From Prauserella alba (lineage in GTDB: Bacteria > Actinomycetota > Actinomycetes > Mycobacteriales > Pseudonocardiaceae): 64,000 nucleotides of DNA. The position numbers and the translations under genes are program-made. The notes under the pieces were generated by a model, which saw nothing but the letters and a program-made list of their open reading frames with translations, was not told the DNA's origin and did not search any database. This document shows positions 1,217 to 19,308 of the stretch, one piece after another; within the stretch, counting starts at the first letter, position 1; each line of letters opens with the position of its first letter. The stretch covers positions 1,240,001 to 1,304,000 of the forward strand of contig NZ_JAMTCH010000004.1 in NCBI RefSeq assembly GCF_024171735.1. The letters are read 5' to 3'.

Positions 1217-1230
1217 GGCAGCTGTCCCCT

Positions 1231-2286
1231 CTAGCGGTGGTGTGACGTCGTGATGATCCCGGTCGCCGCCGGTTCGACCCTGAGCTTTCCACGTGCCCGG
1301 CTCGCCTCAAAATCCCCCGGCAGCCATACGCCGCCCTGACCCCGCCAATCGGCGACGAGTGCGTCGACGGATCGCAGGTGCCCGTCCGTGAGCTCGCGCA
1401 CTCCGGCATCGAGCAGCCAGGTCCGCAGCGCGCGTCTCCGCAGCGCGGCGGGGGCGGTTTCGAGCGCAGGCACCGACAGCTCCGGAGGGGCGTCGCCTCC
1501 CTCGTCCGCGCCTGCACGAGCGTCACCGCGCGCGGCGGCGAGCAGCTCCTCGCCCAGGTCATCGAGCACGTCGACGTCCTCTCGGAGTTGTGCGGCCGTC
1601 CGTGCCAGCGCGCCCGCGACGCCGCCGCCGAGCACGTCCTCGAGCATCGGCAGGGCCTCCTCCCGAATCCGTACCCGCCGGTAGCGGCTGTCCGAGTTGT
1701 GCGGGTCCTGCCACGGGGCGATGCCGAGTTCGTCACACGCGGACCTCGTGGTGGTCCGCGGCAGGCCGAGCAGTGGCCTTCCCCACGGCGGGTCGTACGA
1801 GCGCATCCCCGCGATCGATCGCGGGCCCGAGCCGCGGCCGAGTCCCAGCAGCACCGTTTCGGCCTGGTCGTCGCGGGTGTGCCCGAGCAGTACGGGTGCG
1901 CCCGCGGACGCCTCCCGCAGCGCTGCGTACCTGGCTCTGCGCGCCGCCGCCTCCGGGCCGCCGCGCCCCGACACCGACACCGGCAGCACGCGGACCTCGC
2001 CCACGCCGAGTTCCCGTGCGGTGGCGGCGGCCTTGTCCGCGACCTCCGTGGAACCGGCCTGCAACCCGTGGTCGACGACGAGCGCCGTCACCGGCAGGTT
2101 CCGGCACGTGTGCGCGGCCGCCTCGGCGAGCGCGAGCGAATCGGCACCGCCCGAGACCGCGACACACAGTGATGCCGGCGCCGGCTCCGGCATCGCAGCC
2201 AGGAACTCCCGGACGGCCTTGCGGACGGCCCCGACGGCGCGGAATCCGCTCCGGCCGGACGTCGTCAGTGGACCCGCTGCACCCAT
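1231..2286 (-). CDS. tilS: tRNA(Ile)-lysidine synthetase
   Basis: TilS attaches lysine to C34 of the CAU-anticodon tRNA-Ile, changing both its codon reading and its charging; it is normally essential. The PP-loop ATP pyrophosphatase motif SGGADSLAL is at about 45-53, followed by the family blocks [10 protein letters not shown] and [22 protein letters not shown]. The protein has 351 residues, the short actinobacterial form, with a reduced C-terminal domain. Its ATG at 2286 lies inside the end of the upstream DUF2342 gene (22-bp overlap), implying translational coupling. Confidence 0.93.
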
Positions 2287-3395: not shown

Positions 3396-3425
3396 CGCAT
3401 CGCCAGGGCGGCGGCCGCAACTCTC

Positions 3426-6005
3426 CTAGCCGCAGCCGCACTCTCGGAGGGTGGCGGTGACGGTGTCGAGTGCGTCGCGGGCGGCCTCGGTGTCGCCCGC
3501 CTTCGAGGTGATGAGCGAGAACGCCAGGACCCGGCCGTCCACGGTGACGACCTGGCCGGTCAGCGCATTGGTGCCGGTGGACGAGATCGTGCCGGTCTTG
3601 GCGCGCACCCAGCCGCGGGCCTGCGCGGGCGTTCCCTCGGTGTAGCGCTCGGCAAGCGTGCCGGTGCCGCCCGCGACGGGCAGGCCGGCCAGCATCGGCC
3701 GCAGCGTCGATGTGCGCTCATCGGCGTGCGCGCTGCCGCCGGGTGCCGCGGCGACGGACATGACCTCCGACAGCAGCTTCGTCGTGACGCGGTTGTCCAC
3801 CGAGAGGCCGCTGCCGTCGTGGAGCGTCACCCCGCTGACGTCGAAGCCGTGTTCGCGCAGCACGTCGAGGGTCGCCTTCGCCCCGCCCTCGAACGAGGGC
3901 TCCCGGCCCTTGGAGATCGCGATCTGGTGCTGGATCGCCTCGGCGAGAGTGTTGTCCGACAGCTGCAGCATCTGCTGGACGAGCCGCTCCATCGGCGCCG
4001 ACCGCACCTCGGCGATCGGTTCGCCGGTGAACCGCCCCGGCAGCTCGCCTCCCCGCCGCTCGTGGAGCTTCCTCGTCAGCTCGCCGTCGACATCCGCCGC
4101 GGCGAACTTGCCCGCCAGTTGTTCGATCATCCGTTTCGCCGGGTCGCCGAACCGTTCGGACGTGTCGTCGAGCGGGTCCGTGCGGCCGCCGTCGAGCATG
4201 ATCGGCGCGAGCGGTGCGGCGTACGTCGACGGGGCGTCCTCCTTCGCCCAGCCCTGCGCCGTCTTGTCGGCGGTGTACCGGCTCTGGTCGAGGGCGAACG
4301 CGTCGATCTGGCCGTCGACGGCTTCGTCGATCTGCTTCGCGAGGTCGTTCAGGTGGGCCGCGCCGCGGTAGAGGGATTCCTCACCTTCCGGCAGCGACGA
4401 CAGCGTCACGTCGCCGCCCGCCTTCACCACGACGGCGTTGTACTCGCTTCCGGTACCGGCGGGTGCCATCCCGTACGCCTTCGTCGAGAACCGCATGTCC
4501 GGACCGAGTTCGAGCAGTGCCGCCGCGGCCGTGAGGATCTTCGTCGCCGAGGCGGGCGTCACGGCCCTGTTCTCACCCTGCGACCACAGCGTCTCGCCGC
4601 TGGTCGCGTCGATGACCGTGCCGCTGAGCGTCCCCAACGCCCCCGAACTCGTGGGTCCCGCGAGCGCCTGCTGCAGGCCGCTCGCCGTCGGTGCGTCGCC
4701 CTGTCCGCCGATGGGCTGCAGCTGCCGCGTGACGGCAATGGGCTCGGGTTCGTCGCCCTTCGGCAGGTTCGGCGCCCAGGGCAGGCCGAGGCGGTTCGAC
4801 ACGGCCGGCAGCGCCAGCGTGATGCCGACGGCGACGACGAGCACGAGCGCCAGCCCGCTGAGCAGCAACCCGCGGCCACGTCGGCGACGTTTCGGAGCGG
4901 GACCGGGGTCGGCCTCCCCGTCCGAAGGACTGTCCGTCGGGCCGTCCGGTGGGCCGTCGGAACCCCCGTCCGAGCCGTGTTCGGCAGCGGGGTCGGCCTC
5001 GGTGGGGGTGCCTGCCTCGGCAGCCGCACCGGGAACGTCCGGCGTGGTCGACTCGGGGACGCCGGAATCGTCACGAGCGTGACCCTCCGGGTGCGCATGG
5101 GGCCCCGGCTGGATGCGCATCGGACGAGCGGACGTACCCGCGGGCGGAACGGGCGTCGTGGAGATCGGCGGGTGCGCAGGGCGTTGCTGCGGTGGCGTTG
5201 GCCGTTGCGGCTGCCCCGACCGCGAGGCGCCCTGCTGCCGTGGGCCCGGCTGCGAGGGGCCCTGCTGCGGTGGGTGCGGGTGCGGGCCATGCGGCCGTGG
5301 AGCGGTGGGCTGCGGATACTGCTGGTCGGGCCGGGGTTCCCGTGGGTCGGAGTACCGTTGCCGCGGGCCGGGCTGAGACTGGTCGGGCTGCGGCGTCCGG
5401 CTCGCGGGCCGGTCCGGCTGTCCCTGCGCCCCCTGTCCCTGTGGTGACTGTCCCTGTGCCGACGGATTCGGCGGTCCGGACGGCTGCCACTGCTGCACCG
5501 GCTGCTGCCGGCCGCCCTGCTGCTGGTGTGACGCCGCCCGGTGTGGCTGCGGCTCGTGTGGCTGCGGCTGGTGTGGCTGGGGCTCCTGCGGGCGCTGGGG
5601 CATGTGCCCGGGCTGCGACTCCTGTGCCCGCCCGATCTCGGGGCGCCGCTGGGGATCCGTGCGCTGCTGCGCCGACGACGACTGCTGCGGCTGCCGCGAC
5701 TCCGGCGGCTCCGGTCGCTGCGGCGCCGACGACTGCTGCGGTGACTCCGGCGACTGCGGCGATTCCGCCGGCTGCGGCGACTGCGGTGATTGGGACGACG
5801 ACCGCGGCGACCGGGGCGCCGTCGGGCCCGCACCCGACGCGTCCTGGTTCGACGAACCCGACGTCACCGATTCCGCGGATTCCGACGTCGAATACCCGGA
5901 AGCCGAGTGCTCGGGTGACGAGTCGATGTCGTCCGACGGCCACGCCGGTCCCCCGCCCGCAGCCCCGCCGGCGTCGTCGTCCGCGCCGGTTTCGCGTTGT
6001 GACAC
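3426..6005 (-). CDS. dacB: D-Ala-D-Ala carboxypeptidase/endopeptidase (PBP4 family) with long Pro/Gln-rich cytoplasmic N-terminus
   Basis: A class C low-molecular-mass penicillin-binding protein that trims or cleaves peptidoglycan stem peptides outside the membrane. The catalytic motifs are complete: SATK at 486-489, SDN at 683-685 and KTG at 803-805. One membrane segment lies at about 380-400 after an Arg/Lys-rich stop (KRRRRGRG). The first 380 or so residues are low-complexity Pro/Gln/Ser/Arg and would be cytoplasmic and disordered, making the protein (859 aa) almost twice the usual length. I chose the GTG at 6005 because GGAGGGG sits 3-5 nt upstream; an in-frame GTG at 6071 lacks this. Confidence 0.9.
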   Translation of the reverse strand: MSQRETGADDDAGGAAGGGPAWPSDDIDSSPEHSASGYSTSESAESVTSGSSNQDASGAGPTAPRSPRSSSQSPQSPQPAESPQSPESPQQSSAPQRPEPPESRQPQQSSSAQQRTDPQRRPEIGRAQESQPGHMPQRPQEPQPHQPQPHEPQPHRAASHQQQGGRQQPVQQWQPSGPPNPSAQGQSPQGQGAQGQPDRPASRTPQPDQSQPGPRQRYSDPREPRPDQQYPQPTAPRPHGPHPHPPQQGPSQPGPRQQGASRSGQPQRPTPPQQRPAHPPISTTPVPPAGTSARPMRIQPGPHAHPEGHARDDSGVPESTTPDVPGAAAEAGTPTEADPAAEHGSDGGSDGPPDGPTDSPSDGEADPGPAPKRRRRGRGLLLSGLALVLVVAVGITLALPAVSNRLGLPWAPNLPKGDEPEPIAVTRQLQPIGGQGDAPTASGLQQALAGPTSSGALGTLSGTVIDATSGETLWSQGENRAVTPASATKILTAAAALLELGPDMRFSTKAYGMAPAGTGSEYNAVVVKAGGDVTLSSLPEGEESLYRGAAHLNDLAKQIDEAVDGQIDAFALDQSRYTADKTAQGWAKEDAPSTYAAPLAPIMLDGGRTDPLDDTSERFGDPAKRMIEQLAGKFAAADVDGELTRKLHERRGGELPGRFTGEPIAEVRSAPMERLVQQMLQLSDNTLAEAIQHQIAISKGREPSFEGGAKATLDVLREHGFDVSGVTLHDGSGLSVDNRVTTKLLSEVMSVAAAPGGSAHADERTSTLRPMLAGLPVAGGTGTLAERYTEGTPAQARGWVRAKTGTISSTGTNALTGQVVTVDGRVLAFSLITSKAGDTEAARDALDTVTATLRECGCG

Positions 6006-6825: not shown

Positions 6826-8007
6826 TCAGGAGCGACGGCGGGTGATCAGGGCGGTGAGGACGCCGGCGAGCAGGCCCCAGAACGCCGAACCGATGCCGAG
6901 CAGCGTCACGCCGGACGCGGTGGCGAGGAACGTGACGACGGCGGGTTCGCGCCACCGCTCGTCGCCGAGCGCCGAGGTGAGCGAGCCCGTGATCGTCGCG
7001 AGCAGGCCGAGTCCGCTGATGCCGATGATCAGCGCCTCGGGAAGCGCGCCGAGCAGGGAGCCGACCGTGCCGGCGAACACCCCGATGACCAGGTAGAACA
7101 GGCCCGCCCACACGGCGGCGAGGTAACGACGGCTGCGGTCCTCGAGCGCCTGTGGCCCGGTGCAGATCGCCGCGGTGATGGCGGCGAGGTTCAGGCCGAA
7201 GCAGCCGAACGGCGCGAGCAGCAGGTTCGCCACGCCCGTGGTGCCGATGACGGGCGACAGCGGCACGTCGGTGTAGCCGTCGCCTCGCAGCACCGCCACG
7301 CCGGGCAGGTTCTGCGACGCCATCGTCACGATGTACAGCGGCAGTCCGACACTGATGATCACCTGCCAGTCGAACTCCGGCATCGTGAACACGGGCGCCC
7401 CGAACGCGAGGTCGACGCGGTCGAGCTGCAGTGTCCCCGTGACGGCGGTCGCGGCGACGCCCACGGCCAGCGCGACGAGCACCGCGTAGCGGGGCACCCA
7501 CCGCCGCGCCAGCAGGTACGCCAGCAGCATCGGGAACACGACGGCGAAGCTCGTCTCCAGTTCGCCGAACAGGTCGATGCCGAACTGCACGAGGACCCCG
7601 GCGAGCAGGCCGGAGGCGAGTGCGACCGGAATGCGGTTCATGACGCGTTCGAACACGCCGGTCACACCGGTCAACGTGATCAGCGCGGCCGACACGACGA
7701 ACGCTCCGATCGCCTGCGCCATGGGAACGCCGTGCAGACTCGCGGCCAGCAGTGCGGCGCCCGGGGTGGACCAGGCGGTGACGATCGGCGCGCGGTACCG
7801 CAGTGACAGGCCGATGGACGTGACGCCCATGCCGACGCACACCGCGAGCATCCACGACGTGACCTCTGCGGGAGTTGCGCCTGCGGCTCGCGCTGCGGAG
7901 AAGACGATCGCGGCCGTGCTGGTGACGGCGACGAGTACCGAGATGAGACCCGCGGCCACGGCGGTCGGCGGGAACACCCTGGGCACGAGGGTCTTCTGGG
8001 CCGTCAT
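6826..8007 (-). CDS. benE: BenE-family benzoate/aromatic acid:H+ symporter-like permease
   Basis: A 393-residue polytopic membrane protein with about 11-12 hydrophobic segments and the BenE hallmark region around ASQNLPGVAVLRGDGY followed by a Gly/Ala-rich helix (APFGCFGLNLAAITAAICTG). The family imports benzoate with protons, but no benzoate catabolic gene is nearby, so the substrate is open. It stands alone between ppa and the ceramidase remnant, and it ends 5 bp from a long palindrome. Confidence 0.85.
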   Translation of the reverse strand: MTAQKTLVPRVFPPTAVAAGLISVLVAVTSTAAIVFSAARAAGATPAEVTSWMLAVCVGMGVTSIGLSLRYRAPIVTAWSTPGAALLAASLHGVPMAQAIGAFVVSAALITLTGVTGVFERVMNRIPVALASGLLAGVLVQFGIDLFGELETSFAVVFPMLLAYLLARRWVPRYAVLVALAVGVAATAVTGTLQLDRVDLAFGAPVFTMPEFDWQVIISVGLPLYIVTMASQNLPGVAVLRGDGYTDVPLSPVIGTTGVANLLLAPFGCFGLNLAAITAAICTGPQALEDRSRRYLAAVWAGLFYLVIGVFAGTVGSLLGALPEALIIGISGLGLLATITGSLTSALGDERWREPAVVTFLATASGVTLLGIGSAFWGLLAGVLTALITRRRS

Positions 8008-8046
8008 GCGGTGGTGGTCATGCTGTTGTCGCTCACTTCGCTCGTA

Positions 8047-8293
8047 CTACCGGCCTGCGGTCGACGGGTCCGCCCGTTCGGGTGATCCTACCCAGCGGCC
8101 CGCGGCGGTTCGGGTGACGAGGTAGAGCACGGCGGCATTGAGCAGATGCCACAGCCTGCCGCTGGACGGCGATGGCGGCGAGCAGGAACCCGACGTTGCT
8201 GATCGTGTTGAGCGGCTCCCCGAACAGGCCGGGCGCGAGGCGTTCGCAGTAACCGTCGACGTAGGCGGTCCAGTCCGCGGCGTTCGGGTTCAC
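8047..8293 (-). pseudogene. Internally deleted and frameshifted ceramidase-family membrane protein gene
   Basis: From ATG 8293 the first 42 or so residues (VDGYCERLAPGLFGEPLNTI then SNVGFLLAAIAV) match the start of the bacterial ceramidase/alkaline phytoceramidase-like family. Near 8160 the frame shifts, and the other frame then reads RLWHLLNAAVLYLVTRTAAG, which resembles the C-terminal LWHLLN helix of the same family, ending at TAG 8047-8049. The middle of the protein, normally about 150-200 residues with several helices, is missing. This is best read as one gene that lost its core by deletion. Family assignment is by recognition; an 86-residue in-frame ORF also exists across the scar. Confidence 0.7.
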
Positions 8294-8339
8294 GTGGCCG
8301 GTCTACCCGGCGAAGGTGAGCGGCGCGCGACGTCGTGCC

Positions 8340-8885
8340 TCACTCGGGCCGGTCGGGTTCGGCGATCTCCTCCACGCCGTCGGCGTGACGACGGGCCAGC
8401 TCCTGGTAGATCGCGGCGTTGTGGTCGATCCAGCCTCGGGCGCTGTCGGTCAGCGGGACGAACTTCTTCGCGGGGCTGCCCATCGCGATGACCTCGGACG
8501 GCACTTCGGTGCCCGGCGTGACGGTGGAACCGGCGGCGACGAGCGTGCGCGCGCCCACGGTGGCCAGGTCGAGGACCGTGGATGCGTTGCCGATGAGCGC
8601 CTGCTCGCCGACGGTGCAGTCGTGCACGATGCACGAGTGACCGACGGTGGCGTTCGCACCGACCTCGCACACCCCGTCGCCCACGTGCAGCACGGAGTTG
8701 TCCTGCACGTTCGCGCCCTCGCGGATCACGATGCGGCCGAAGTCCGCACGGACGACGACGCCGTACCAGATCGACGCGCCCTTCTCCACGACGACATCGC
8801 CCACCAACGTGGCCGTCGGCGCGATCCACGCCTCGGGGTGGACGGAGGGGCGCTTACCTTCGAACGCGAACATCGGCATGGGCAC
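8340..8885 (-). CDS. Gamma-class carbonic anhydrase-like left-handed beta-helix protein
   Basis: A 181-residue hexapeptide-repeat protein of the gamma-CA/PaaY/YrdA family. Three candidate zinc-ligand histidines are present, in SVLHVGDG, ATVGHSC and IVHDC, and a C-terminal helix (SARGWIDHNAAIYQELARRH) packs on the helix trimer. Members hydrate CO2 or act as poorly defined acyl transferases or thioesterases. GTG 8885 or ATG 8879 could be the start. It lies alone between the ceramidase remnant and the IclR gene. Confidence 0.85.
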   Translation of the reverse strand: MPMPMFAFEGKRPSVHPEAWIAPTATLVGDVVVEKGASIWYGVVVRADFGRIVIREGANVQDNSVLHVGDGVCEVGANATVGHSCIVHDCTVGEQALIGNASTVLDLATVGARTLVAAGSTVTPGTEVPSEVIAMGSPAKKFVPLTDSARGWIDHNAAIYQELARRHADGVEEIAEPDRPE

Positions 8886-8945
8886 AGCGTAGATGTGCCG
8901 TTCGCCCGGGAGGACCGGACGTGTGCCACATCGGAGGTCCGGGAT

Positions 8946-9794
8946 TCAGCCCGCCACGTCCAGCGGCGACCCGAGGCGGGCCGAGATCGTCGCGGCGGCC
9001 TCTCGCACGGCGCTGATGATGCTGACGAGCTGGCTGCCCCTGAAGTCGCCCGCGGGGCCGCCGAGACTGACGGTGGCCTCCAGTTTCCCGGTCCGGTCGA
9101 ACACCGGGGCGGCGACCGCACCGACACCGTTGAGGTAGTCCTCGTCGCTGATCGTGTATCCCTCGTCGCGGATCCGGTCGAGCTGCGATTCGAGACCGGC
9201 GCGATCCTGCACCGTGTGCCGGGTGAACGCTTTCAAGGGCTCGGCCAGCCAGCGCTCCCGCAGTTCCGGGACGAACGCGAGCATGGTCATCGGCCCCGCA
9301 GCCGCGTGGTACGGCAGCACCGTCCCGATGCCGATGTGCTTCACCGACAGCGGACTCGACCCTTCGTAGCGGTCGATGACCACGGCGCCGCCGTCGCCGG
9401 GAATCATCAGGTACGCCGTGTCGCCGAACCGTTCGGCGAGGGACAACAACGAGGGCCGGGCTTCGTCGCGGAGACTGAAATCGGCGAGCGCCACCGATCC
9501 GAGGCTGAACAGCTTCATACCGACCTTGTAGTCGCCGTCGGGCGTCCTCGTCAGCCAGCCCATCCGCACGAGCGTGCTGAGCAGCCGGTGCGTGGTGGTC
9601 TTGTTCAGACCGGTGGCGGCGCACAGTTCCGTGAGCCCGAGGACCGGTTTTCCGCCGTCGAAGGCGTCCAGCAGCTGACCGGCGCGGACCACGGAGTTCA
9701 CCATGTTCTTCGGGTCATCGGTCTTCAGCTCGTCGGCCTTCGAGGTGTCGGTCTTCGGGATGTCGTCGTGGCCGTCGTTGTCTATCGGTGGCAT
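8946..9794 (-). CDS. IclR-family transcriptional regulator
   Basis: A 282-residue regulator with an N-terminal winged helix-turn-helix at about 35-90 (LGLTELCAATGLNKTTTHRLLSTL is the recognition region) and a C-terminal IclR effector domain (about 110-270, including NGVGAVAAPVFDRTGKLEATVSLGGPAG). The ATG at 9794 was chosen because AAGGAAAG lies upstream. It is transcribed with the acyl-CoA ligase gene upstream (92-bp gap) and probably controls that gene and the divergent lyase-hydratase-transporter operon through the palindrome at 11524-11541. Confidence 0.9.
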   Translation of the reverse strand: MPPIDNDGHDDIPKTDTSKADELKTDDPKNMVNSVVRAGQLLDAFDGGKPVLGLTELCAATGLNKTTTHRLLSTLVRMGWLTRTPDGDYKVGMKLFSLGSVALADFSLRDEARPSLLSLAERFGDTAYLMIPGDGGAVVIDRYEGSSPLSVKHIGIGTVLPYHAAAGPMTMLAFVPELRERWLAEPLKAFTRHTVQDRAGLESQLDRIRDEGYTISDEDYLNGVGAVAAPVFDRTGKLEATVSLGGPAGDFRGSQLVSIISAVREAAATISARLGSPLDVAG

Positions 9795-9886
9795 CCGTTC
9801 ACTTTCCTTCTGCCGTAGGCACTGCTCGGCGTGAGGCGAACCGTCGGCGCAGGCGCGGTGTCCGCCGGCACGATACGTCGGCGTGT

Positions 9887-11497
9887 TCAGGCGTACTCGC
9901 CACGGAGTCGCTTCTTGTCCAGTTTGCCCACGCTCGTCTTGGGAACCTCCGCGACGAACTCGAACCGGTCCGGCACCTGCCAACGCGGCACGCGGTCGGC
10001 GAGGAAATCGCGCAACCGCGCCGCATCGACGTCACCGGCCGCCACGACCGCCATCGGCCGTTCGTCCCACTTCGGGTCGGGCACGGCGATCACGGCGGCC
10101 TCGCGTACCGCGGGGTGTGCCAGCAGATGATTCTCCAGCGCCACGGAGGAGATCCATTCGCCGCCGGATTTCACCAGGTCCTTCGTGCGGTCGACGAGGC
10201 GCACGTATCCGCGTTCGTCGACCGTCACGACGTCACCGGTGCGGAGCCAGCGCCTCTCCTCGGAGTCCGCGAACTTGTCGGCCGTGGAACCGGATTCCGC
10301 GCCGTAGTAGTCGGCGACGACGTACGGGCCGCTGATCTGCAGTTCGCCGATCGAGGTGCCGTCCCACGGCGCCTGCGCATCGTCCTCGACGGCGCGCAGC
10401 TCCAGGCCCGGCATCGGCCTGCCCTGGCTGGACTTCGCCGCCGCGGTCGCGGTGGCGTCGCCGCCCGCGGGCGGGTTGGCGATGAGCCCCACGGGCGAGC
10501 ACTCGGTCATTCCCCATGCGTGCACCGGTTCGATACCGAGTCCGGCCAGTTCGGACATCAGGGTTTCCGACGCGGCCGAGCCGCCGATCACCACCCGCTG
10601 CAGGGAATCCAGTGCCTCGCGGTCGACCTCCCCCGCACGGGCCGCGGCGACGAGATTCGCCCACACCGTGGGGACGGCGGCGGAGAACGTCACGCCTCCG
10701 GCCGCGAAACACTCGGCCAGGCCGGCGGGGTCGGTTCGTTGCGCGGGCAGGACGAGGCCGGCCCCGGCGAGCAGGCTCGCGTACGGCAGGTTCCACGAGT
10801 TCGCGTGGAACATGGGCACCACCGGGCAGACGACGTCGTGCTCGGAGATCGCGAACGTGTCGGCACCGCACAGTGTCAGCGCGTGCAGGTAGACCGACCG
10901 GTGGCTGTAGACGACGGCCTTCGGCCAGCCCGTGGTGCCCGAGGTGTAGCAGATTCCACTCGCCTCGTTCTCGTCCGCGGGCCGGTACCACCGGCCGTCG
11001 CGCGCAGGCAGGCCGGAGGATTCGGCGAAGCGGGTGACGACGGCGCCGCCGTGCCGTTCGGGGAGCTCGTCGATGTCGCCGTACACGATCACGTGCTCGA
11101 CACACGCCGGGAGCGTGACGGCCGACCACTCCGGCCACAGCGCGGCGTCCACGAGCACGGCCCGGTCGCCCGCGTGCTCGACCGTGTAGGCGATCTCCTC
11201 GCTGCCGAGCCTGATGTTGACGGTGTGGAGCACCAGTCCGCTGCCGGGGACGGCGATGTAGGCGAGCAGGTGTTCGCGGGTGTTCGGGGCGAACGTCGCG
11301 ACGCGGTCGCCGGGGCGCAACCCGAGTCCGGTCAGCCAGCCTGCGAACAGGCGCGCCTGGGCGAACAGTTCGCCGTAGGTGCTCGCCGTCGGTCCCGCGT
11401 CGCCGCCGACGACCACCGGCCGGTCGGCGAAGAGCGTTTCGCACCTGTCGAGGATCTGGTGCAGTCCCAGCGGCTCCGGCTGCATCACCGCTCGCAT
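9887..11497 (-). CDS. AMP-forming acyl-CoA ligase
   Basis: A 536-residue ANL-superfamily adenylating enzyme that activates a carboxylic acid with ATP and CoA. It shows the P-loop-like motif YTSGTTGWPKAVVYSHRS, the A5-type WGMTECSPVG, the hinge TGDVVTVDERGYVRLVDRTKD and the catalytic lysine region PKTSVGKLDKKRLR. The substrate cannot be read from sequence; in this context a short acid released by the adjacent lyase (such as propionate or acetate) is plausible. ATG 11497 has AAGGGAG about 6 nt upstream. Confidence 0.88.
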   Translation of the reverse strand: MRAVMQPEPLGLHQILDRCETLFADRPVVVGGDAGPTASTYGELFAQARLFAGWLTGLGLRPGDRVATFAPNTREHLLAYIAVPGSGLVLHTVNIRLGSEEIAYTVEHAGDRAVLVDAALWPEWSAVTLPACVEHVIVYGDIDELPERHGGAVVTRFAESSGLPARDGRWYRPADENEASGICYTSGTTGWPKAVVYSHRSVYLHALTLCGADTFAISEHDVVCPVVPMFHANSWNLPYASLLAGAGLVLPAQRTDPAGLAECFAAGGVTFSAAVPTVWANLVAAARAGEVDREALDSLQRVVIGGSAASETLMSELAGLGIEPVHAWGMTECSPVGLIANPPAGGDATATAAAKSSQGRPMPGLELRAVEDDAQAPWDGTSIGELQISGPYVVADYYGAESGSTADKFADSEERRWLRTGDVVTVDERGYVRLVDRTKDLVKSGGEWISSVALENHLLAHPAVREAAVIAVPDPKWDERPMAVVAAGDVDAARLRDFLADRVPRWQVPDRFEFVAEVPKTSVGKLDKKRLRGEYA

Positions 11498-11523
11498 CCG
11501 AGCTCCCTTCTCCCGTTTCACAT

Positions 11524-11541
11524 AACGATACATGTTCCGTT
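11524..11541. promoter_or_regulatory. Candidate IclR operator palindrome
   Basis: The sequence AACGATACATGTTCCGTT is a centred palindrome of the form AACGnnACATGTnnCGTT. It lies 27 bp upstream of the acyl-CoA ligase start and 16 bp upstream of the TTGACA box of the divergent operon. A second imperfect pair (CGTTTCACATAA and TTATGTGCGAAACG) overlaps the same stretch. Position and symmetry fit a shared operator for the cluster's IclR protein. Confidence 0.5.
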
Positions 11542-11556
11542 TTATGTGCGAAACGG

Positions 11557-11586
11557 TTGACACTTGCACATGCGGCTGCCTAGCTT
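11557..11586 (+). promoter_or_regulatory. Promoter of the lyase-hydratase-transporter operon
   Basis: A consensus -35 TTGACA (11557-11562), an 18-bp spacer and a -10 TAGCTT (11581-11586) end 35 bp before the ATG at 11622, leaving a short leader that contains the GAAGG ribosome binding site. The same TAGCTT -10 with a TTGACG -35 occurs before nagZ. Confidence 0.65.
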
Positions 11587-11621
11587 TCTCGAAACTAGTT
11601 CCGGATAACGGAAGGTGGACA

Positions 11622-12497
11622 ATGTCGACCACCACATCGACCGCCACGCTGCGCGAGCTCGTCGACGACGACCTGGTGTTCGCACCCGGCGTGTGGGACG
11701 GGCTGACCGCACGACTCGCCGAGCAGGCAGGCTTCGAGGCGCTCTGCGCGTCCGGGTTCGCGGTGTCCGCGGCGCTCGGCTACCCCGACGCCGAGCTGTA
11801 CACGATGACCGAGAACCTCGACGCGGTCCGCACCATCCGCGAGGCCAGCGGGCTGCCGCTGGTCGCCGACATCGACACCGGCTACGGCAACGCCGTCAAC
11901 GCCGCGCGCACGGCACGGAAGTTCGCCGACGCGGGCGTGCAGGCCGCGTTCATGGAGGACCAGGAATCCCCCAAGCGCTGCCCGGTGTGCGTCGGGGATC
12001 CCGTGCCGCTGCTCGACGTCGAGACCGCGAGCGGGAAGATCCGCGCCGCCGCGGACGCGGCCGACGGCCGGATGCTGCTCATCGCCAGGACCGACGCCAC
12101 CGGCGACGAGGCGCTGCGCCGGGCCGAGGCCTACGTGGCCGCGGGTGCGGACATGATCATGCCGGTCACGAAGACGTTCTCGGACGCAGAGCAGTGGGCG
12201 AAATGCCGCGAGGTCGCGGGCGTGCCGTTGGTCGCGACGCTCACGGCGTCGACGTGGACGGAGCGCGACTTCACGCCCGAGGTGCTGCGGCAGATCGGGG
12301 TGCGACTCGCGCTCCTGCCGACGCAACCGCTGATGGCCGCGGCAGGAGCGTTGCGCACGTGTCTCGAACGCCTGGCCGGCGGCGAGCCTCCCGCACGGGT
12401 GAGCGCGGACTCCCTGCAGCACCACGAGTTCGTCGACCTGATCGGCTTCGCGGACGTCGAGGCCGCTCAGCAGCGCTATCTCCCCGCGGACCGGTGA
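11622..12497 (+). CDS. Isocitrate lyase/PEP mutase superfamily carbon-carbon lyase
   Basis: A 291-residue alpha/beta barrel enzyme of the PEPM/ICL superfamily. Metal-binding acids lie in VADIDTGYGN (D83, D85) and MEDQ (112-114). The flexible catalytic loop is SPKRCPV (116-122) with Cys120, corresponding to KRCGH of 2-methylisocitrate lyase, so a lyase with a cysteine general acid is more likely than a mutase or decarboxylase. It is too short for isocitrate lyase AceA. As the first gene of an operon with aconitase-like subunits, a role in splitting a hydroxy-diacid (methylisocitrate, dimethylmalate or citramalate type) is inferred. Confidence 0.85.
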   Translation: MSTTTSTATLRELVDDDLVFAPGVWDGLTARLAEQAGFEALCASGFAVSAALGYPDAELYTMTENLDAVRTIREASGLPLVADIDTGYGNAVNAARTARKFADAGVQAAFMEDQESPKRCPVCVGDPVPLLDVETASGKIRAAADAADGRMLLIARTDATGDEALRRAEAYVAAGADMIMPVTKTFSDAEQWAKCREVAGVPLVATLTASTWTERDFTPEVLRQIGVRLALLPTQPLMAAAGALRTCLERLAGGEPPARVSADSLQHHEFVDLIGFADVEAAQQRYLPADR

Positions 12498-12502
12498 TCG
12501 GC

Positions 12503-13768
12503 ATGCCGCAGACCATCACCGAGAAGATCCTCGCCCGCGCGGGCGGAGTCGACAGCGTCCGCCCCGGGCAGAACCTGCCGTTCCGCCCCGACCACATGAT
12601 CGCCTACGACTTCCCCGGCTACACCGACGTCATGTTCCGGCAGATGCACGAGGACTTCGGCATCACCGAACTCGCCGAGCCCGAGCGATACCTGGTCTTC
12701 ATCGACCACATGCTCACCAAGGGCGACGAGAAGGAACGCGACATCCACAAGGTGACCCGGGACTGGTGCGACTTCTACGGCGTCACCCTGCACGAGGCCG
12801 AAGGCATCGGCCACCAGGTCGCCGCGGAGCTCGGCTACGCACCGCCCGGCCGGTTCCTGATCCACTTCGACGGGCACGTCAGCGGCCTCGGCGCGTTCGG
12901 CAGCCTCGGCTGGGGCGTACGGCGCGACCTCCTCGAAGCGTGGGTGAGCGGCCAGATCTACCTGGACGTACCCGCGACCGTGCGATTCGACCTGACCGGC
13001 GAGTTCCGGCCGGGCGTCGACAACCGGGACCTCATCCACGCGATCATCGGACGACTGGGCGCCGACGGCTGTGCCCACCAAGTGATGGAGTTCGGCGGGC
13101 CCGGGGCCGAGGCGATGAGCATCGACCGACGCCAGGGCCTGTGCGGCATGGCCATGTTCACGGGTGCGGTGTCGGCGATCTTCAACCCGGACCGCAGAGC
13201 GCTCGACTACGCGGATGCCGTGGCACGCGGCCCGTACGAGCCGGTCTCCAGCGACCCCGACGCCGAGTACAGCTCCCGCCACACCTTCGACCTCTCGACC
13301 ATCGAACCCCAGGTCGTGCTTCCCGGATCCGCCAGGTCCGCCAACACCCGCGGGGTGTCCGAACTGGACACAACCGAGGTGACGAAGGCGTTCATCGGCT
13401 CCTGCGCGAGTGGCCGCATCGAGGACATCCGCGACGCCGCGGCACTGCTGGAAGGACGGAAGGTGTCGGCAGGCGTGGAACTCAACGTCGTGCCGACGTC
13501 CGCCGAGATCCACCGGCAGGCGGAACGGGAGGGCCTGCTCGACGTCCTGCGCGCCGCCGGAGCCAACATCCACACCTCGAGCTGCGACTTCTGCTTCGGC
13601 TACCAGAAGCCGCTGCAGCCGGGGGAGAAGTGCATCTCCACGGGTGTCCTGAACATCTCGGGCCGGATGGGCAGCACGGCATCGGAGATCTACATGGGAT
13701 CGGCCTCGACCGTGGCCGCGAGCGCGATCACCGGGACGATCACGGATCCGCGCGAGGTGATGGCGTGA
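12503..13768 (+). CDS. Aconitase/3-isopropylmalate dehydratase-type large subunit
   Basis: A 421-residue LeuC-like hydro-lyase large subunit. Three cysteines expected to hold the [4Fe-4S] cluster are Cys301 (FIGSCASGRIEDI) and Cys361/Cys364 (SSCDFCFGY). The usual GSCTNSR is GSCASGR here, showing this is not orthodox LeuC. ATG 12503 has GGTGA 5 nt upstream; GTG 12494 overlapping the previous stop is an alternative. It is paired with the small subunit by a stop/start overlap. It probably hydrates an unsaturated diacid or isomerises a hydroxy-acid. Confidence 0.85.
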   Translation: MPQTITEKILARAGGVDSVRPGQNLPFRPDHMIAYDFPGYTDVMFRQMHEDFGITELAEPERYLVFIDHMLTKGDEKERDIHKVTRDWCDFYGVTLHEAEGIGHQVAAELGYAPPGRFLIHFDGHVSGLGAFGSLGWGVRRDLLEAWVSGQIYLDVPATVRFDLTGEFRPGVDNRDLIHAIIGRLGADGCAHQVMEFGGPGAEAMSIDRRQGLCGMAMFTGAVSAIFNPDRRALDYADAVARGPYEPVSSDPDAEYSSRHTFDLSTIEPQVVLPGSARSANTRGVSELDTTEVTKAFIGSCASGRIEDIRDAAALLEGRKVSAGVELNVVPTSAEIHRQAEREGLLDVLRAAGANIHTSSCDFCFGYQKPLQPGEKCISTGVLNISGRMGSTASEIYMGSASTVAASAITGTITDPREVMA

Positions 13769-14289
13769 TGAGTGGCTACCCGCCGCCGCCCGAGACGATC
13801 CGCGGCCGTGTGGCATGGATCTTCGGGGACGACTTCGACGTCGACCTGATCATCGGCGTGGAGAACATCAAACACTACGACGCAGACGTGCTCCGCGGCG
13901 TCACCATGCAGGCGTACGACCCAGATTTCGTCGACGAGGTCGAACCGGGAGACGTCATCGTCGGCGGCCGGAACTTCGGTTACGGCCACCCCCACTACCC
14001 ACCGCTCGTCGCACTGCGCAACCTCGGTGTCGCCGCCGTCGTCGCGGAGTCGTTCTCCCCGGGGTTCTGGCGCGGCGAGACCTACAACGGCATGCCGTTG
14101 ATCACCGCACCCGGCATCACTGACCACGTTCGGCGCTGGGACCCGGTGGAGGTGGACTGGCGGAAGGCCAGGGTCACCCTGCCCACGGCAGGCACGACGC
14201 TGGAAGGCACACCGCCGAGCGAACGCGTCACCAAGATCATCGAGGCAGGCGGGAGCCTTCGGCTGCTGCTCGCCGAACACCGCCGTTGA
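13768..14289 (+). CDS. Aconitase/3-isopropylmalate dehydratase-type small subunit
   Basis: A 173-residue LeuD-like swivelling domain. The signature loop reads GGRNFGYGHPHYPP (about 67-80), where true LeuD has GxNFGCGSSREHA, so the substrate-recognition residues differ from leucine biosynthesis. ATG 13768 overlaps the TGA of the large subunit (ATGA), indicating coupled 1:1 synthesis. Together with the upstream gene it resembles split hydratases such as dimethylmaleate hydratase DmdAB, an inference from architecture and neighbours. Confidence 0.83.
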   Translation: MSGYPPPPETIRGRVAWIFGDDFDVDLIIGVENIKHYDADVLRGVTMQAYDPDFVDEVEPGDVIVGGRNFGYGHPHYPPLVALRNLGVAAVVAESFSPGFWRGETYNGMPLITAPGITDHVRRWDPVEVDWRKARVTLPTAGTTLEGTPPSERVTKIIEAGGSLRLLLAEHRR

Positions 14290-14312
14290 CCCGCATCCCC
14301 GGAGGAACCGTC

Positions 14313-15629
14313 ATGACCTCGACACACGGCGCCAGCGATGTCGCCGTCCCCACCTTCTCGCCCCGGCTCACGCGGCGCGCCGCTCTCGCGGGCGGGGTCG
14401 GAACACTCATCGAGTACTACGACTTCAGCGTGTACGGCTTCCTCGCCGTCACCATCGCGCCGCTGTTCTTCCCCAACTCCGACAGCACGGCATCGATGCT
14501 GGCGGCGCTGGCCGTGTTCGCGTCTGGCTACGTCGTCCGGCCGCTCGGCGGGGTGTTCTTCGGCTGGCTCGGCGACCGGTACGGCCGCAGAGCACCGCTC
14601 GTCGCGACGATCGTCGGCATGGGGTTGTGTTCCGGGCTGATCGGCATACTGCCCACCTACGAGTCCATCGGCGTGCTCGCTCCCGTCCTGCTCGTGCTGC
14701 TGCGATTGGTCAGCGGGTTCTGCGCGGGCGGTGAGATCGGCGGCGCCGCCACGTACATCGCCGAGTCGACGCCACCCGAGCGGCGCGGCTTCTTCGGCTC
14801 GTTCACGCCGTTCGGTTCCACCTTCGGATTCGCGACGGCGGCAACGGTCGTCGCCGTGGTCACCAGCGCCGTGGGCACCGGCACCATGTCCGGCTGGGGC
14901 TGGCGCCTGCCGTTCCTGCTGTGCTTCCCGTTGGCGCTGCTCTGCCTGTGGGCGCGGGCTCGCCTCGAGGACACCCCCGAGTTCACGAAGACGAAGCAGG
15001 AGGGGCGGCAGGCGAAGTGGCCGTTGCTGCAGGTGCTGCGGACCAACCCGGTCGCCGTGCTCCGCGTGATCGGCGTCGCCGTCGCCACCAACGGCACCGG
15101 CTACATCGGCCTGGTGTACATGAACGTCTACCTGATCGACGACCTCGGCTACCCGGCGGGCGACGTGTCGTGGTTGTCGGCAGGAGTCATCGCGCTGGCC
15201 TGCTTCACGATGCCGTTCGTCGGGCTGCTGTCGGACCGTTGGGGACGCCGTAAGGTGATCGCCACGGGCGTCGTCGGCTACCTGATCATCAGCTATCCGG
15301 TGCTGGCGCTCATGGAGTCGGCCGACAGCCTGCTGGTCGTCGGCGTGCTGTACCTGGCGTTCATGGTCCTCAACGCGCTGCTGCAGGTTCCGGCGTTCCC
15401 GATGTTCACGGAGTTGTTCGGCGGCAGCACGCGGTACACGGGCGTCGCGCTCGGCTTCAATCTGGGCACGATCCTCGCCGGCGGCACCGCGCCGTACATC
15501 GCCACCCTGCTCGTCCAGCAGACCGGGGACCGGCAGTCGCCTGCCTTCTGGGTCATGGGCGCCGCACTGGTCGGACTGCTCAGTCTCATCCGGCTCCGCG
15601 AGACGGCGAACACCGCGCTGCCGCGCTGA
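14313..15629 (+). CDS. MFS transporter, metabolite:H+ symporter (MHS) type
   Basis: A 438-residue carrier with 12 predicted helices. MHS hallmarks are GTLIEYYDFSVYGFLAV near the N-terminus and the loop motif GWLGDRYGRR, with the second-half repeat GLLSDRWGRRKV. MHS members import di- and tricarboxylates, shikimate, proline or betaine with protons. Start ATG 14313 has GGAGGA 6 nt upstream, 23 bp after the small subunit. It most likely imports the substrate of this cluster. Confidence 0.88.
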   Translation: MTSTHGASDVAVPTFSPRLTRRAALAGGVGTLIEYYDFSVYGFLAVTIAPLFFPNSDSTASMLAALAVFASGYVVRPLGGVFFGWLGDRYGRRAPLVATIVGMGLCSGLIGILPTYESIGVLAPVLLVLLRLVSGFCAGGEIGGAATYIAESTPPERRGFFGSFTPFGSTFGFATAATVVAVVTSAVGTGTMSGWGWRLPFLLCFPLALLCLWARARLEDTPEFTKTKQEGRQAKWPLLQVLRTNPVAVLRVIGVAVATNGTGYIGLVYMNVYLIDDLGYPAGDVSWLSAGVIALACFTMPFVGLLSDRWGRRKVIATGVVGYLIISYPVLALMESADSLLVVGVLYLAFMVLNALLQVPAFPMFTELFGGSTRYTGVALGFNLGTILAGGTAPYIATLLVQQTGDRQSPAFWVMGAALVGLLSLIRLRETANTALPR

Positions 15630-15651
15630 CGGCCCAGCGGCCGGCCACGTC

Positions 15652-15703
15652 CGGCGGTGTCCGGGCCTTCACCCGTTCCCCGCCGAAGGCCCGGACACCG
15701 CCG
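15652..15703. terminator. Bidirectional hairpin between the MHS transporter and the LuxR regulator
   Basis: Perfect 19-nt arms at 15652-15670 and 15685-15703 flank a 14-nt loop. The right arm lies inside the last codons of the convergent LuxR-type gene, so the stem also encodes the C-terminal residues of that protein. There is no T-run, as usual in this GC class. Confidence 0.75.
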
Positions 15704-18275
15704 CGACGAGTTCGACCCGCGAGCGCACACCGAGCCTGACGAAGATGTTGCGCAGATGGTGCTCGACGGTACGCCGGGAGATCGCCAGCCGTTCCGCGAT
15801 CTCCCGGTTCGTCCGTCCATCCGCGACCAACCGGACGATGCGTTCCTGTTGCGGTGTCAGCTCTTCGGCCGACGACGGCGTGGTCTCGTCGGCGCGATCG
15901 CCCGCGGCGCGCAGTTCGTCGCGGATCTGGGCGGCCCAGTAGCCGGCGCCCGCGTCGTCGGCGAGGCGGAAGGCGTCGCGCAGTACCGAGCGCGCCTCGC
16001 GGTTACGGCGCTGCCGCCGCAGCGCCCTGGCGTACGCCAGTTCGGTGCGGGCGAGTTCGAGCGTCATGCCGCCGGACCGCTGGAGTTCGACGGCGCGGCG
16101 GAAGTGCTCCTCCGCGGTCGCCGGGTCGGCCGCGAGCAACGCCCGGCAGCGGTGCGCCAGCGCGAGCCACACGCCGGTCCCCGTCGACTCCGCCCATGTC
16201 TCGTACCGTTCGAGTGCCCGCCGTGCGCTGTCGGACTCGCCGCACCGGATCGCGGACTCGACGAGCTGCGGGATGGCCGCGACCTGCACCGTCGACCGGC
16301 CGGTCCCCGGGACGAACAGCGCGTCCAACCGCCGGAACGCGTCGGCGGGCCGATCGTCGAGCAGGTCGGCACATCCGCGCACCCACTCGGCGAGCGCTGC
16401 CGCCCGCCGGAGCCCGACGCGGTCGATCCTGGCCTGCGCCGCCGCCACCCGTGCCAGTGCCGCGTCGCGATCGCCGAGCGAGACGTAGGCCAGGCCCGCG
16501 AGAACCTCGTGCTCGGCGGCCGTGTTGCGCTGGCCGCTCGCCACGGCCAGCGCAACACCTTCCCCGCTCGCCTCCACCGCCGCGTGCGGCCGGTCGAGCA
16601 ACGCCGACGTGAGCGAGAACTGGAACAGCGCCGTGGGCAGCAGCGTCGGGTTGTCACCGCCGCGGGCACCGGCGACCGCGGCCGCGGCCCGGTCGTGCGC
16701 CAGTCCGGGACGGCCGAGGGTCATCGCCGCCTCGGCCGCGCACAGGGCGCCGCGGACGTCGTCGCCCGCCTCGGCCAGTACCTTCCGCAACGCCGCGGCG
16801 CCGGCCGCGTGGTCACGGGTGAACATCGCGGCCATGCCCGCAAGGTGCGTCGCCACCAGGGTTTCCGTTGCCGCCGCCAGCCTCGCCGTCTCGGCGTGGC
16901 CGCATCCGTCGGCGGCGGTGCGGCGTGCTTCGGCCGCGAGCAGGAACGCGTCGGCCGCCTCCTCGACGGGCAGCTTCCGGGCGGCGAGAAGCAGCTGGTG
17001 TGCGGCGACCTCCGGGGCGCCGTCCCTGAGTTCGATCTCCCCGACGGCGACCAGAACCCGGCCCACCACCGGGCCGGGCGGTGCGTGCTCGCGGGCGTGC
17101 CCCAGCAGTCTGCGTGCCGGCCCGACCCGACCCTCGGCCCAGTACCGGCACGCGGCGCGCCGCAGCCGTTCGGCCTTCTCCGCTCCTGGAGGGGTGAGTC
17201 GCGCGGCCCGATGCCAGGCGAGCGCGGACGCCTCCGGGTTGTCGTCGGCCACCGCCGCGAGCCGGTCCGCGACGTCGTCGCGGCCCTCGGCGCAGGCACG
17301 GTGCCACTCCCACGCGGCGCGATGACGCCGCGGATCGAGGGATGCGGCGATCGCGGCGTGCGCGTCGTTTCGCTCGCCTGCCGACGCCGCGGCGTACACG
17401 GTGGCACCGACGGCCGGGCTGGCGGCGCGAATCCCGTCGGCCGTGCTCCGCACCAGTCCGCTGCGCTGCACCTCGGCGGGCTCGGGGTCGTCGGCGGACG
17501 CCTCGGTGGCGCCGAGCGCCTCGGACGGCTCGGCACACGAGGCCCGCAGCACCAGCGCACGAGCCGCGTCGGGCAGCCCCCGGAAGGTGCGCAGCACCGC
17601 GTCCCTGCCACGTCCTTCCGCGGGCAGTTCGCACGGCGGCGGCTGGCTGCCCGTTGCCTGCGCGGCGGTGAGCGCGTCGGCGAGTTCCAGCAGGTCGGAC
17701 GGGTTTCCGCCGGCGGCCTCGATCAGTTCGGCTGCGACGGGTGCGGCGACCCGCGCCGGTACGAGGCGCAGCGCTTCGTCGTCGGTCAGCGGCGGGAGCG
17801 TTTCGACGTGGAGGCCGGCCAACCGGTCCGCTTCCGGCGCCGCGAGCGGCACCGTGAACACCACCGCGACGGGCCCTCGCGCGCATCTGCGCGCCAGGAA
17901 CGCCAGGACGTCGAGCGATTCGACGTCGAGCAGGTGGGCGTCGTCGACGAGGCACAGCACGGGGCCGCCGACGGCCAGCCGTTCGTGCAGCGCCGCGGCG
18001 CGCGGTTGGACGTCTCCCGCGGTGCAGGCGGTGATGCCCGCGGCCGCGCACAGCCGCTGGAGGCCCGCCCACGGGAGTTCGGACTCGGCCGCGATGCCCG
18101 CGACCGCGGCGACCCGTACCGGCCCGCCGGTCGGCACGGTGTCCAGCACTGCGGTTCTGCCCATGCCGCGGGCCCCGACGAGCACGAGCGCGCCGCCCCG
18201 TCCCGCGCCCACGTCGTCGTGCAGCGCCGCGAGGCGGGCTCGGACGTCGTCCCTGCCCACGATCGCTGCGGCCAT
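15669..18275 (-). CDS. Large LuxR-type ATPase regulator (LAL/MalT-like)
   Basis: An 868-residue regulator with an N-terminal AAA/NTPase region, a long helical TPR-like middle and a C-terminal LuxR helix-turn-helix (LTPQQERIVRLVADG then SRRTVEHHLRNIFVRLGV). The Walker A is VGARGMGRTAVLD (about 28-40), with Arg where Lys is expected; Walker B (VLCLVDDAHLLD) is intact. ATG 18275 has GGAGGG 2-3 nt upstream. It is divergent from the cutinase gene, which it may control. Its ligand is unknown. Confidence 0.85.
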   Translation of the reverse strand: MAAAIVGRDDVRARLAALHDDVGAGRGGALVLVGARGMGRTAVLDTVPTGGPVRVAAVAGIAAESELPWAGLQRLCAAAGITACTAGDVQPRAAALHERLAVGGPVLCLVDDAHLLDVESLDVLAFLARRCARGPVAVVFTVPLAAPEADRLAGLHVETLPPLTDDEALRLVPARVAAPVAAELIEAAGGNPSDLLELADALTAAQATGSQPPPCELPAEGRGRDAVLRTFRGLPDAARALVLRASCAEPSEALGATEASADDPEPAEVQRSGLVRSTADGIRAASPAVGATVYAAASAGERNDAHAAIAASLDPRRHRAAWEWHRACAEGRDDVADRLAAVADDNPEASALAWHRAARLTPPGAEKAERLRRAACRYWAEGRVGPARRLLGHAREHAPPGPVVGRVLVAVGEIELRDGAPEVAAHQLLLAARKLPVEEAADAFLLAAEARRTAADGCGHAETARLAAATETLVATHLAGMAAMFTRDHAAGAAALRKVLAEAGDDVRGALCAAEAAMTLGRPGLAHDRAAAAVAGARGGDNPTLLPTALFQFSLTSALLDRPHAAVEASGEGVALAVASGQRNTAAEHEVLAGLAYVSLGDRDAALARVAAAQARIDRVGLRRAAALAEWVRGCADLLDDRPADAFRRLDALFVPGTGRSTVQVAAIPQLVESAIRCGESDSARRALERYETWAESTGTGVWLALAHRCRALLAADPATAEEHFRRAVELQRSGGMTLELARTELAYARALRRQRRNREARSVLRDAFRLADDAGAGYWAAQIRDELRAAGDRADETTPSSAEELTPQQERIVRLVADGRTNREIAERLAISRRTVEHHLRNIFVRLGVRSRVELVAAVSGPSAGNG

Positions 18276-18441
18276 AGCCCTCCGCCCTTGGAAAGCCCGT
18301 CGATCCGGCGTCCGGAAGATCCGAGAATCCGTCGGTGACTTTCTCACACACCCCCGGTGATTACACCGATGCGCAGCGCGGCGGTGCGGGGCGAGAGTGA
18401 TCCGGCCAGCAGCCGGACTCACCGGAATTCGAGGAGGAACA

Positions 18442-19308
18442 GTGCGACGAACGAGACTGACGACGCTCCTGTCGGCGGCCGCGCTTGCGCTCACGGCCGC
18501 CTTCGTCGGCCCTGCCGGGCAGGCGGCCCACGCGGCGGGCACGTATCAGCACGGCCCGGATCCGACGGAGGACAGCATCGAGGCCCCGCGGGGTCCGTTC
18601 GACGTCGCGGAGGACCGGGTGTCGAGCCTGGTGCCGGGGTTCGGCGGCGGGACGATCTACTATCCGACCGCGACCGGCGAGGGCACGTTCGCGGCGATCG
18701 CGATCTCTCCGGGCTACACGGCGAGCCAATCGAGCATCGCCTGGTTGGGGCCGCGGCTGGCTTCGCAGGGGTTCGTGGTGTTCACGATCGACACCGACAG
18801 CCGTTACGACCAGCCAGGCAGCCGCGCCGACCAGTTGAACGCCGCGTTGGAATACCTCACGCAGGACAGCGATGTGACCGATCGGGTCGACCCGGAGCGG
18901 CTCGGCGTGGCCGGGCATTCGATGGGCGGCGGCGGTTCGCTCGAGGCGGCGGTCGAGAACTCGGACATCGACGCGGCCGTGCCGTTCGCGCCGTGGCATT
19001 TGCGCAAGGATTTCTCGGGGCTGTCGACGCCGACGTTCATCGTCGGTGGTGAGTCGGACTCGGTCGCGCCGGTGCGGCGTCACTCGGAGCCGTTCTACGA
19101 GTCGATCCCCGACAGCACGGACAAGGCGTACATGGAGTTGGAGCGGGCCAACCACTTCTTCCCGAACACGCCGGACACGACGACGGCGAAGTACACGCTG
19201 TCGTGGTTCAAGTTGTTCCTCGACGACGACGAGCGCTACGCGCAGTTCCTGTGCCCCGCGCCGGACGACGGGGACATCGCCGAGTACCGCGACACCTGCC
19301 CGTACTGA
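18442..19308 (+). CDS. Secreted cutinase-like polyesterase (PET hydrolase family)
   Basis: A 288-residue alpha/beta hydrolase exported by a Sec signal peptide (cleavage near AQAAHA-AG, about 31). The catalytic triad is Ser160 (GHSMGGGGS), Asp206 (GGESDSVAP) and His238 (ANHFFPN). Tyr92 (PGYTASQ), Met161 and Trp185 (APWHLRK) correspond to the substrate clamp of TfCut2/Cut190-type enzymes. Cys271 and Cys286 form the typical C-terminal disulfide. GTG 18442 has GGAGGAAC upstream. Family members hydrolyse cutin, triglycerides and polyesters including PET; the natural substrate here is unknown. Confidence 0.92.
   Translation: MRRTRLTTLLSAAALALTAAFVGPAGQAAHAAGTYQHGPDPTEDSIEAPRGPFDVAEDRVSSLVPGFGGGTIYYPTATGEGTFAAIAISPGYTASQSSIAWLGPRLASQGFVVFTIDTDSRYDQPGSRADQLNAALEYLTQDSDVTDRVDPERLGVAGHSMGGGGSLEAAVENSDIDAAVPFAPWHLRKDFSGLSTPTFIVGGESDSVAPVRRHSEPFYESIPDSTDKAYMELERANHFFPNTPDTTTAKYTLSWFKLFLDDDERYAQFLCPAPDDGDIAEYRDTCPY

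Follow-up and report, generated by a model that had tools for sequence, protein, structure and literature searches.

A conserved IclR-associated cassette in Prauserella alba pairs an aconitase-type hydratase with a PEPM/ICL-superfamily lyase, both with altered active sites

Which acid is handled by a gene cluster in which a two-subunit aconitase-type hydratase stands beside a lyase of the phosphoenolpyruvate mutase/isocitrate lyase (PEPM/ICL) superfamily? Such a cluster lies at 8946-15629 of a 64,000-nucleotide stretch of the Prauserella alba genome (5.6 Mb), here called the window, which corresponds to positions 1240001-1304000 of contig NZ_JAMTCH010000004.1. A preliminary description of this DNA had recognized a lyase, a split hydratase, an MHS symporter, an acyl-CoA ligase and an IclR regulator and had assigned them to the breakdown of an alkyl-maleate or citramalate-type diacid. 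All six genes are indeed present within these bounds and match their family models, the IclR and ligase genes diverging from those of the lyase, the large and small hydratase subunits and the MHS symporter. On balance, we think it fairly probable that they form a small catabolic set for an unsaturated carboxylic acid, combining import, hydration, lyase cleavage and IclR control. To read the set as hydration and then cleavage is sound; the alkyl-maleate or citramalate substrate is unproven. Taken as a whole, the earlier interpretation is partly supported.

The cassette recurs well beyond its host, in scattered soil bacteria. We compared 85 loci, comprising the window, the best 80 of 278 relatives from a one-genome-per-species scan and four plasmid loci (L028-L031); they span three phyla and 67 are actinobacterial. 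Both hydratase subunits are encoded in 85/85 loci and the lyase in 83/85, an occurrence that is more than chance; the two lyase-less loci are cut at contig edges (L066 starts at the large subunit and L072 is a 3.7 kb contig). In the window, five bases separate the lyase stop from the large-subunit start and the two subunit genes overlap as TGATG. An IclR gene is found in 74/85 loci and an MHS gene is labelled in 59/85. The loci from the one-genome-per-species scan include those of P. aidingensis (L044), P. salsuginis (L045) and P. rugosa (L046). In the host family, small-subunit matches (E <= 1e-15) occur in 21 of 150 genomes, counting the host, 11 at 73-100% identity and 10 at 34-41%, with none between. 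Three of 396 genomes in a phylum scan, again including the host, match the cassette-family profile (E <= 1e-35), and 54 plasmid records match at E <= 1e-5, mostly distantly, the four close ones being those compared here. An open-access literature search found no description of this gene set.

The large hydratase subunit (12503-13768, forward strand) scores 246.9 bits against Pfam Aconitase (cut-off 28.7). Its residues are numbered here as in pig aconitase, for which an excerpt of PMC8184944 gives Ser642, Cys358/421/424, Asp165, His167, His147 and His101. Counterparts of the cluster cysteines C358, C421 and C424 are kept in 85/85 large-subunit rows, and judged by its domain and these three cysteines the protein is a member of the aconitase superfamily. 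The preliminary description had called both the cluster motif GSCASGR and the swivel motif atypical. With the three cysteines intact, GSCASGR does not imply a changed cluster and is only a local variant, whereas the swivel anomaly holds: in the small subunit (13768-14289, forward strand; motif GRNFGYGHPHYPP), GSSRE is replaced by GHPHY in 85/85 rows, with His where the general-base Ser642 sits. This count is partly by construction, since NFGYGHPH was one of the two patterns used in the one-genome-per-species scan, so that 11/11 strong host-family relatives and 4/4 aligned plasmid relatives are the fairer figures. Nine of the 11 other rows in the small-subunit alignment (L022 not included) carry GSSR; L021 and L032 have other motifs, GFGIPSHPP in L021:1501-1971 and NFGHHNHVE in L032:8983-9513 (Roseomonas), and the large subunit of L021 has an internal stop as read.

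Further changes are found in the large subunit, for which we take Arg447, Arg452, Glu262, Asn258, Asn446, Ser166 and Asp100 to be the aconitase numbers. Across the 85 rows, His147, Asp165, His167 and Arg452 are always kept and Asp100 and His101 are kept in 84 (one gap). Ser166 is replaced by Gly (83) or Pro (2), Asn258 survives in two rows, Glu262 has become Phe and Arg447 Leu throughout (85 each), and Asn446 has given way to Val (69) or Thr (16). By contrast, 6/6 large-subunit rows whose partner has GSSR retain Arg447. Model scores set the pair apart as well. The large subunit stays below the hacA and LeuC-like subfamily cut-offs (350.4 of 385 and 326 of 385.7 bits), the equivalog cut-offs listed for it are likewise missed (leuC, 177.5 bits against 560.25), as is that of leud (77.4 bits against 245.85), the AcnD cut-off is also missed widely, and a Pfam AcnX match of 26.7 bits lies below its cut-off of 31.5. 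The small subunit has no Pfam match and scores 109 bits on the LeuD/DmdB subfamily model TIGR02087, exceeding the cut-off of 108.95 by 0.05. A tree of the large subunit, which left out L002 (wrongly framed), L021 (truncated) and L109 (long), separates 26 family rows chosen from the 85 from nine others, host LeuC and the M. jannaschii isomerase among them, on a branch with support of 100/99.9. By this tree, the large subunit is a clade outside LeuC/isopropylmalate isomerase. The L032 large subunit adjoins the family branch, with a long-branch warning.

The lyase (11622-12497, forward strand; PEP_mutase 154.5 bits; loop EDQESPKRCP) likewise appears to be a subfamily of its own. Its residues are numbered as in E. 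coli PrpB, where the numbers Asp85, His125, Arg158, Glu188, Asn210 and Arg241 are presumably right. Residues were counted in 81 rows, the 83 loci with a lyase minus L114 and L118, and an excerpt of PMC7609661 gives Asp58, Asp87, Glu115 and Cys123 for PrpB. All 81 rows keep Asp85, Asp87, Glu115, Cys123 and Arg158, and none keeps His125, Glu188, Asn210 or Arg241. In this alignment the Glu188 position is occupied by Lys (76) or Arg (5); a second alignment has a gap there. Glu188 and Asn210 are present in all seven chains aligned for comparison, namely 4iqd (named a carboxyphosphonoenolpyruvate (CPEP) mutase), the petal death protein (1zlp), which we take to be a 2-alkylmalate lyase, and five PrpB chains, one of which has its Cys changed. 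The petal death protein also lacks Arg241, so the loss of this residue is not counted against an alkylmalate substrate.

Scores and phylogeny agree with this picture. The best NCBIfam model for the lyase is PrpB, at 183.6 bits against a cut-off of 354.4; the PEP mutase and phosphonopyruvate hydrolase models give 114.8 of 319.55 and 123.6 of 374.4 bits. Its nearest solved structures score closely together (a protein named CPEP mutase, 121.9; phosphonopyruvate hydrolase, 120.5; PEP mutase, 117.4 bits). Of the 27 rows chosen for the lyase tree, 25 group in one clade (99/98) that is distinct from both PrpB and PEP mutase/phosphonopyruvate hydrolase, and this tree, like that of the large subunit, splits into actinobacterial and other members. 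The protein does not group with PEP mutases and phosphonopyruvate hydrolases (Cys in 81/81 rows, a separate branch) or with PrpB (low score; loop Cys kept; His, Glu and Asn absent in the 81 rows), and the Glu and Asn of 2-alkylmalate/dimethylmalate lyases, as in 1zlp, are absent from it. The preliminary description had regarded a lyase inside PrpB or a hydratase inside LeuCD as findings that would count against it; the lyase falls outside PrpB and the large subunit outside LeuC/isopropylmalate isomerase. From about 10500 of each of L114 and L118, a Cys-less PEPM-type protein with DAEGGFF and IEDHAGGKHT is encoded where the lyase would stand.

Set side by side, the two enzymes conserve the cluster, metal, loop-Cys and 2-hydroxy-carboxylate-side parts, and both are altered together at residues facing the other end of the substrate. 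Changes on the distal side of both fit sequential enzymes changing substrate together and argue against the set being simply copied from known alkylmaleate/alkylmalate enzymes. As far as residues can tell, the substrate end distal to the 2-hydroxy-carboxylate is probably bound in a different way from that of alkylmalates, citrate or isopropylmalate, and a second carboxylate could be held by new Lys/Arg and His residues.

The intergenic DNA offers a candidate control element. A 24 bp operator-like site, CGAAACTAGTTCCGGATAACGGAA, consisting of a palindrome and a further half-site, lies at 11590-11613 on the forward strand, as indicated by pattern conservation. The pattern occurs 26-41 bp 5' of the lyase start in 41/67 actinobacterial loci, 0 times in 50 shuffle rounds and 0 times in 67 coding stretches; it was composed by eye from part of the same upstream sequences, so 41/67 describes conservation. 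Upstream of it, TTGAC at 11557-11561 (forward strand) is a possible -35 element: TTGAC precedes the operator-like site by 29-45 bp in 41/41 loci, against a mean of 2.34 in shuffled sequences (60-bp search). The position of the site behind a putative promoter suggests repression, and an operator in three parts has precedents among IclR-family regulators, PcaU being one. On the ligase side, CGATACATGTTCCG (11526-11539) may be a second palindromic operator half, by a weak likeness to variants of the site; it overlaps an inverted repeat (I1). A regulon beyond the cassette was rejected, the pattern occurring in a single copy in the host genome at up to one mismatch.

The remaining genes vary more. 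The predicted IclR-family regulator (8946-9794, reverse strand) exceeds the HTH_IclR and IclR_C cut-offs, its nearest NCBIfam model being BhcR at 129.3 bits (cut-off 350), and the MHS/MFS symporter (14313-15629, forward strand) exceeds those of Sugar_tr and MFS_1 and scores 384.1 bits on TIGR00883, below the cut-off of 443.45. The AMP-forming acyl-CoA ligase (9887-11497, reverse strand; AMP-binding over cut-off; nearest solved chains 1ult, 408 bits, and 6ihk, 382 bits) is an optional member: a ligase resembling it is found in 8/85 loci and an Azospirillum-like ligase, often at about 30% identity, in 32/85. In 15/15 Rhodococcus/Rhodococcoides loci, the labelled set consists of IclR, lyase, both subunits and MHS, with no ligase in any, so two enzymes may suffice. 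The preliminary description had joined acid activation to hydratase and lyase; gene content and the operator-like site support the latter two beside an IclR regulator, and activation is optional, given these ligase-free loci. Other neighbours among the 85 loci are a LIV-type permease (17), a KstD-like flavoprotein (12), a tandem alpha/beta hydrolase (10), a lactonase-like MBL protein (7) and a GlcD-like flavoprotein (5). In Azospirillum and Variovorax, the subunit genes come after those for MBL and flavoprotein neighbours, and a branched-chain-type ABC transporter lies 3' of the lyase. The tandem hydrolase (L028:2300-3913, L105:3366-4937, L117:11436-13073) has G-[ST]-H-T-G at its likely nucleophile elbow, with His for the usual Ser in 3/3 aligned.

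A route can be proposed from these parts. The MHS symporter would import the unsaturated acid, and the Fe-S hydratase, built from large and small subunits, would hydrate its C=C bond and so form a 2-hydroxy acid; in the small subunit, His74 probably stands in for the usual serine base. The presumably Mg-dependent lyase would then cut the C2-C3 bond, with the loop Cys as proton donor. One product would be a 2-oxo acid, either glyoxylate or pyruvate, and the other a smaller compound that the acyl-CoA ligase may activate where it is present. IclR would control the operon via the site just behind the promoter, presumably by repression. Several points weigh against this route. The direction of the first step, hydration as opposed to dehydration, is assumed, and with the usual serine base missing the subunit pair could have a different function. 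Other genes lie between the subunits and the lyase in L029, L111 and L122, and the lyase-like protein of L114 and L118 is of another type, outside the family clade and without the catalytic Cys. The operator pattern is unmatched in 26/67 actinobacterial loci, and a sigma-70 consensus scan of 11450-11650 found no promoter.

As substrates we considered citraconate, dimethylmaleate, 4-oxo-2-enoates such as acetylacrylate, and lactone-derived acids. The most novel possibility, to which we give clearly less than even odds, is a patchily distributed and undescribed two-enzyme route, in which an aconitase-type hydratase with a His base in place of the serine alkoxide would act on a substrate other than a classical di- or tricarboxylate, together with a co-evolved lyase that would cleave it while lacking the usual aci-carboxylate site. 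It is possible, if somewhat doubtful, that the enzymes are instead an alkylmaleate/citraconate hydratase and an alkylmalate/citramalate lyase resembling DmdAB and dimethylmalate lyase, whose products would be a simple acid together with pyruvate or glyoxylate. The same gene kinds, solved relatives nearest both subunits that are isopropylmalate/citramalate isomerases, the narrow LeuD/DmdB match and the kept loop Cys all speak for this, and the Lys/Arg in the Glu188 column could bind the second carboxylate in a new way; however, the counterparts of Ser642 and Arg447 in the hydratase and of His125, Glu188 and Asn210 in the lyase are changed, and the Glu and Asn are present in the seven compared lyase chains. 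A plain DmdAB-type pathway looks doubtful from this comparison, which argues the pockets from sequence against aconitase numbering and the seven lyase chains.

Rather unlikely, in our estimate, is a substrate with a neutral carbonyl in place of the second carboxylate (e.g. a 4-oxo-2-enoate, perhaps lactone-derived), the lyase acting as a retro-aldolase. The altered distal-side residues of both enzymes would agree with such a substrate, as would the KstD-like flavoprotein, lactonase-like MBL and tandem alpha/beta hydrolase neighbours, but these neighbours, whose functions are putative, are missing from most loci, the new Lys/Arg and two His could equally bind an anion, and Arg452 of the hydratase is kept. 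More improbable still is that the Fe-S enzyme is an isomerase, dehydrating and rehydrating a hydroxy acid as aconitase does before the lyase cleaves the isomer. Characterised heterodimeric relatives do so, according to an excerpt of PMC8184944, and 2-hydroxyacid dehydrogenase-type genes lie near some loci, but the base serving both half-reactions is changed and none of the minimal loci shows a hydroxy-acid source. That the genes are ordinary LeuCD and PrpB paralogues for leucine or propionate metabolism is very improbable. In its favour, relatives carry the annotations '3-isopropylmalate dehydratase' and 'isocitrate lyase/PEP mutase family', and the only strong PEP_mutase matches of the host are the cassette lyase and one probable isocitrate lyase. 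We rejected a LeuCD or PrpB identity on scores (LeuC, AcnD and PrpB cut-offs missed widely), trees (separate clades) and genomic context.

The host in fact encodes a LeuC-LeuD pair elsewhere (LeuD with GSSREHA), adjoining another IclR gene, as well as two further aconitase-family genes and three MmgE/PrpD matches on another contig. With these and the probable isocitrate lyase, the cassette genes are unlikely to serve leucine synthesis or the tricarboxylic acid (TCA) cycle. Within the genus, the cassette is an accessory module. Among six congeners, three carry it (G095, G116, G133) and three have no match (G033, G067, G149), flank DNA being matched at the site in 6/6. In G033 (L134; site compared with window 8930-15669), the left flank runs to window position 8930 and is followed within a few bases by a 202-bp MHS remnant (window 15292-15493, 91.6%) and then by the right flank. 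This remnant, kept between the flanks, is a deletion scar, and the module was lost in G033. G067 has 79 bp between the flanks, and G149 (L136) has about 3.7 kb at the site (about 324-3994) without a match to window 8000-16500. Where the module is present, extra DNA separates the MHS gene from the right flank in G133 (about 6.1 kb) and G095 (about 3.6 kb). The flanking genes (6826-8885 and 15669-18542, both reverse strand) look by eye like a BenE-type permease, a gamma-carbonic-anhydrase-like protein and a large LuxR-type regulator.

A coherent family across three phyla, with His for the serine base and a lyase that is also changed at its distal-group site, clearly invites a search for an undescribed reaction and for a natural carbon source that would be new. 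It also carries a warning, as the labels '3-isopropylmalate dehydratase' and 'isocitrate lyase/PEP mutase' may both be wrong for such genes.

Among known systems, the archaeal-type LeuCD isopropylmalate/citramalate isomerase resembles the cassette hydratase in being a two-subunit Fe-S hydro-lyase (4nqy, 234 bits; 3vba, 98.7 bits), whereas the cassette has GHPHY for GSSRE, Leu for Arg447 and Phe for Glu262 and forms a separate clade. In nicotinate fermentation, dimethylmaleate hydratase DmdAB works with a 2,3-dimethylmalate lyase. The cassette shares with that system an aconitase-type hydratase paired with a PEPM/ICL lyase, and the LeuD/DmdB model is just reached; it differs in its aerobic-type hosts and in its IclR and MHS genes. 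The collections searched contained no DmdAB sequence. The solved dimethylmalate lyase 3fa3 is matched by the cassette lyase at 99.9 bits, a likeness by score alone. With PrpB and the petal death protein, the cassette lyase has in common the fold family, the Mg-site Asp residues, the loop Cys and Arg158, and it differs from both in lacking His125, Glu188 and Asn210 in 81/81 rows; its lack of Arg241 sets it apart from PrpB. An excerpt of PMC8184944 describes a serine base common to characterised aconitase-type enzymes and type-I aconitase X (Ser70), where the cassette, in contrast, has His. Aconitase X nevertheless provides a precedent, since, according to the same excerpt, it is related to aconitase but has a remodelled active site and a different type of substrate (PMC8184944).

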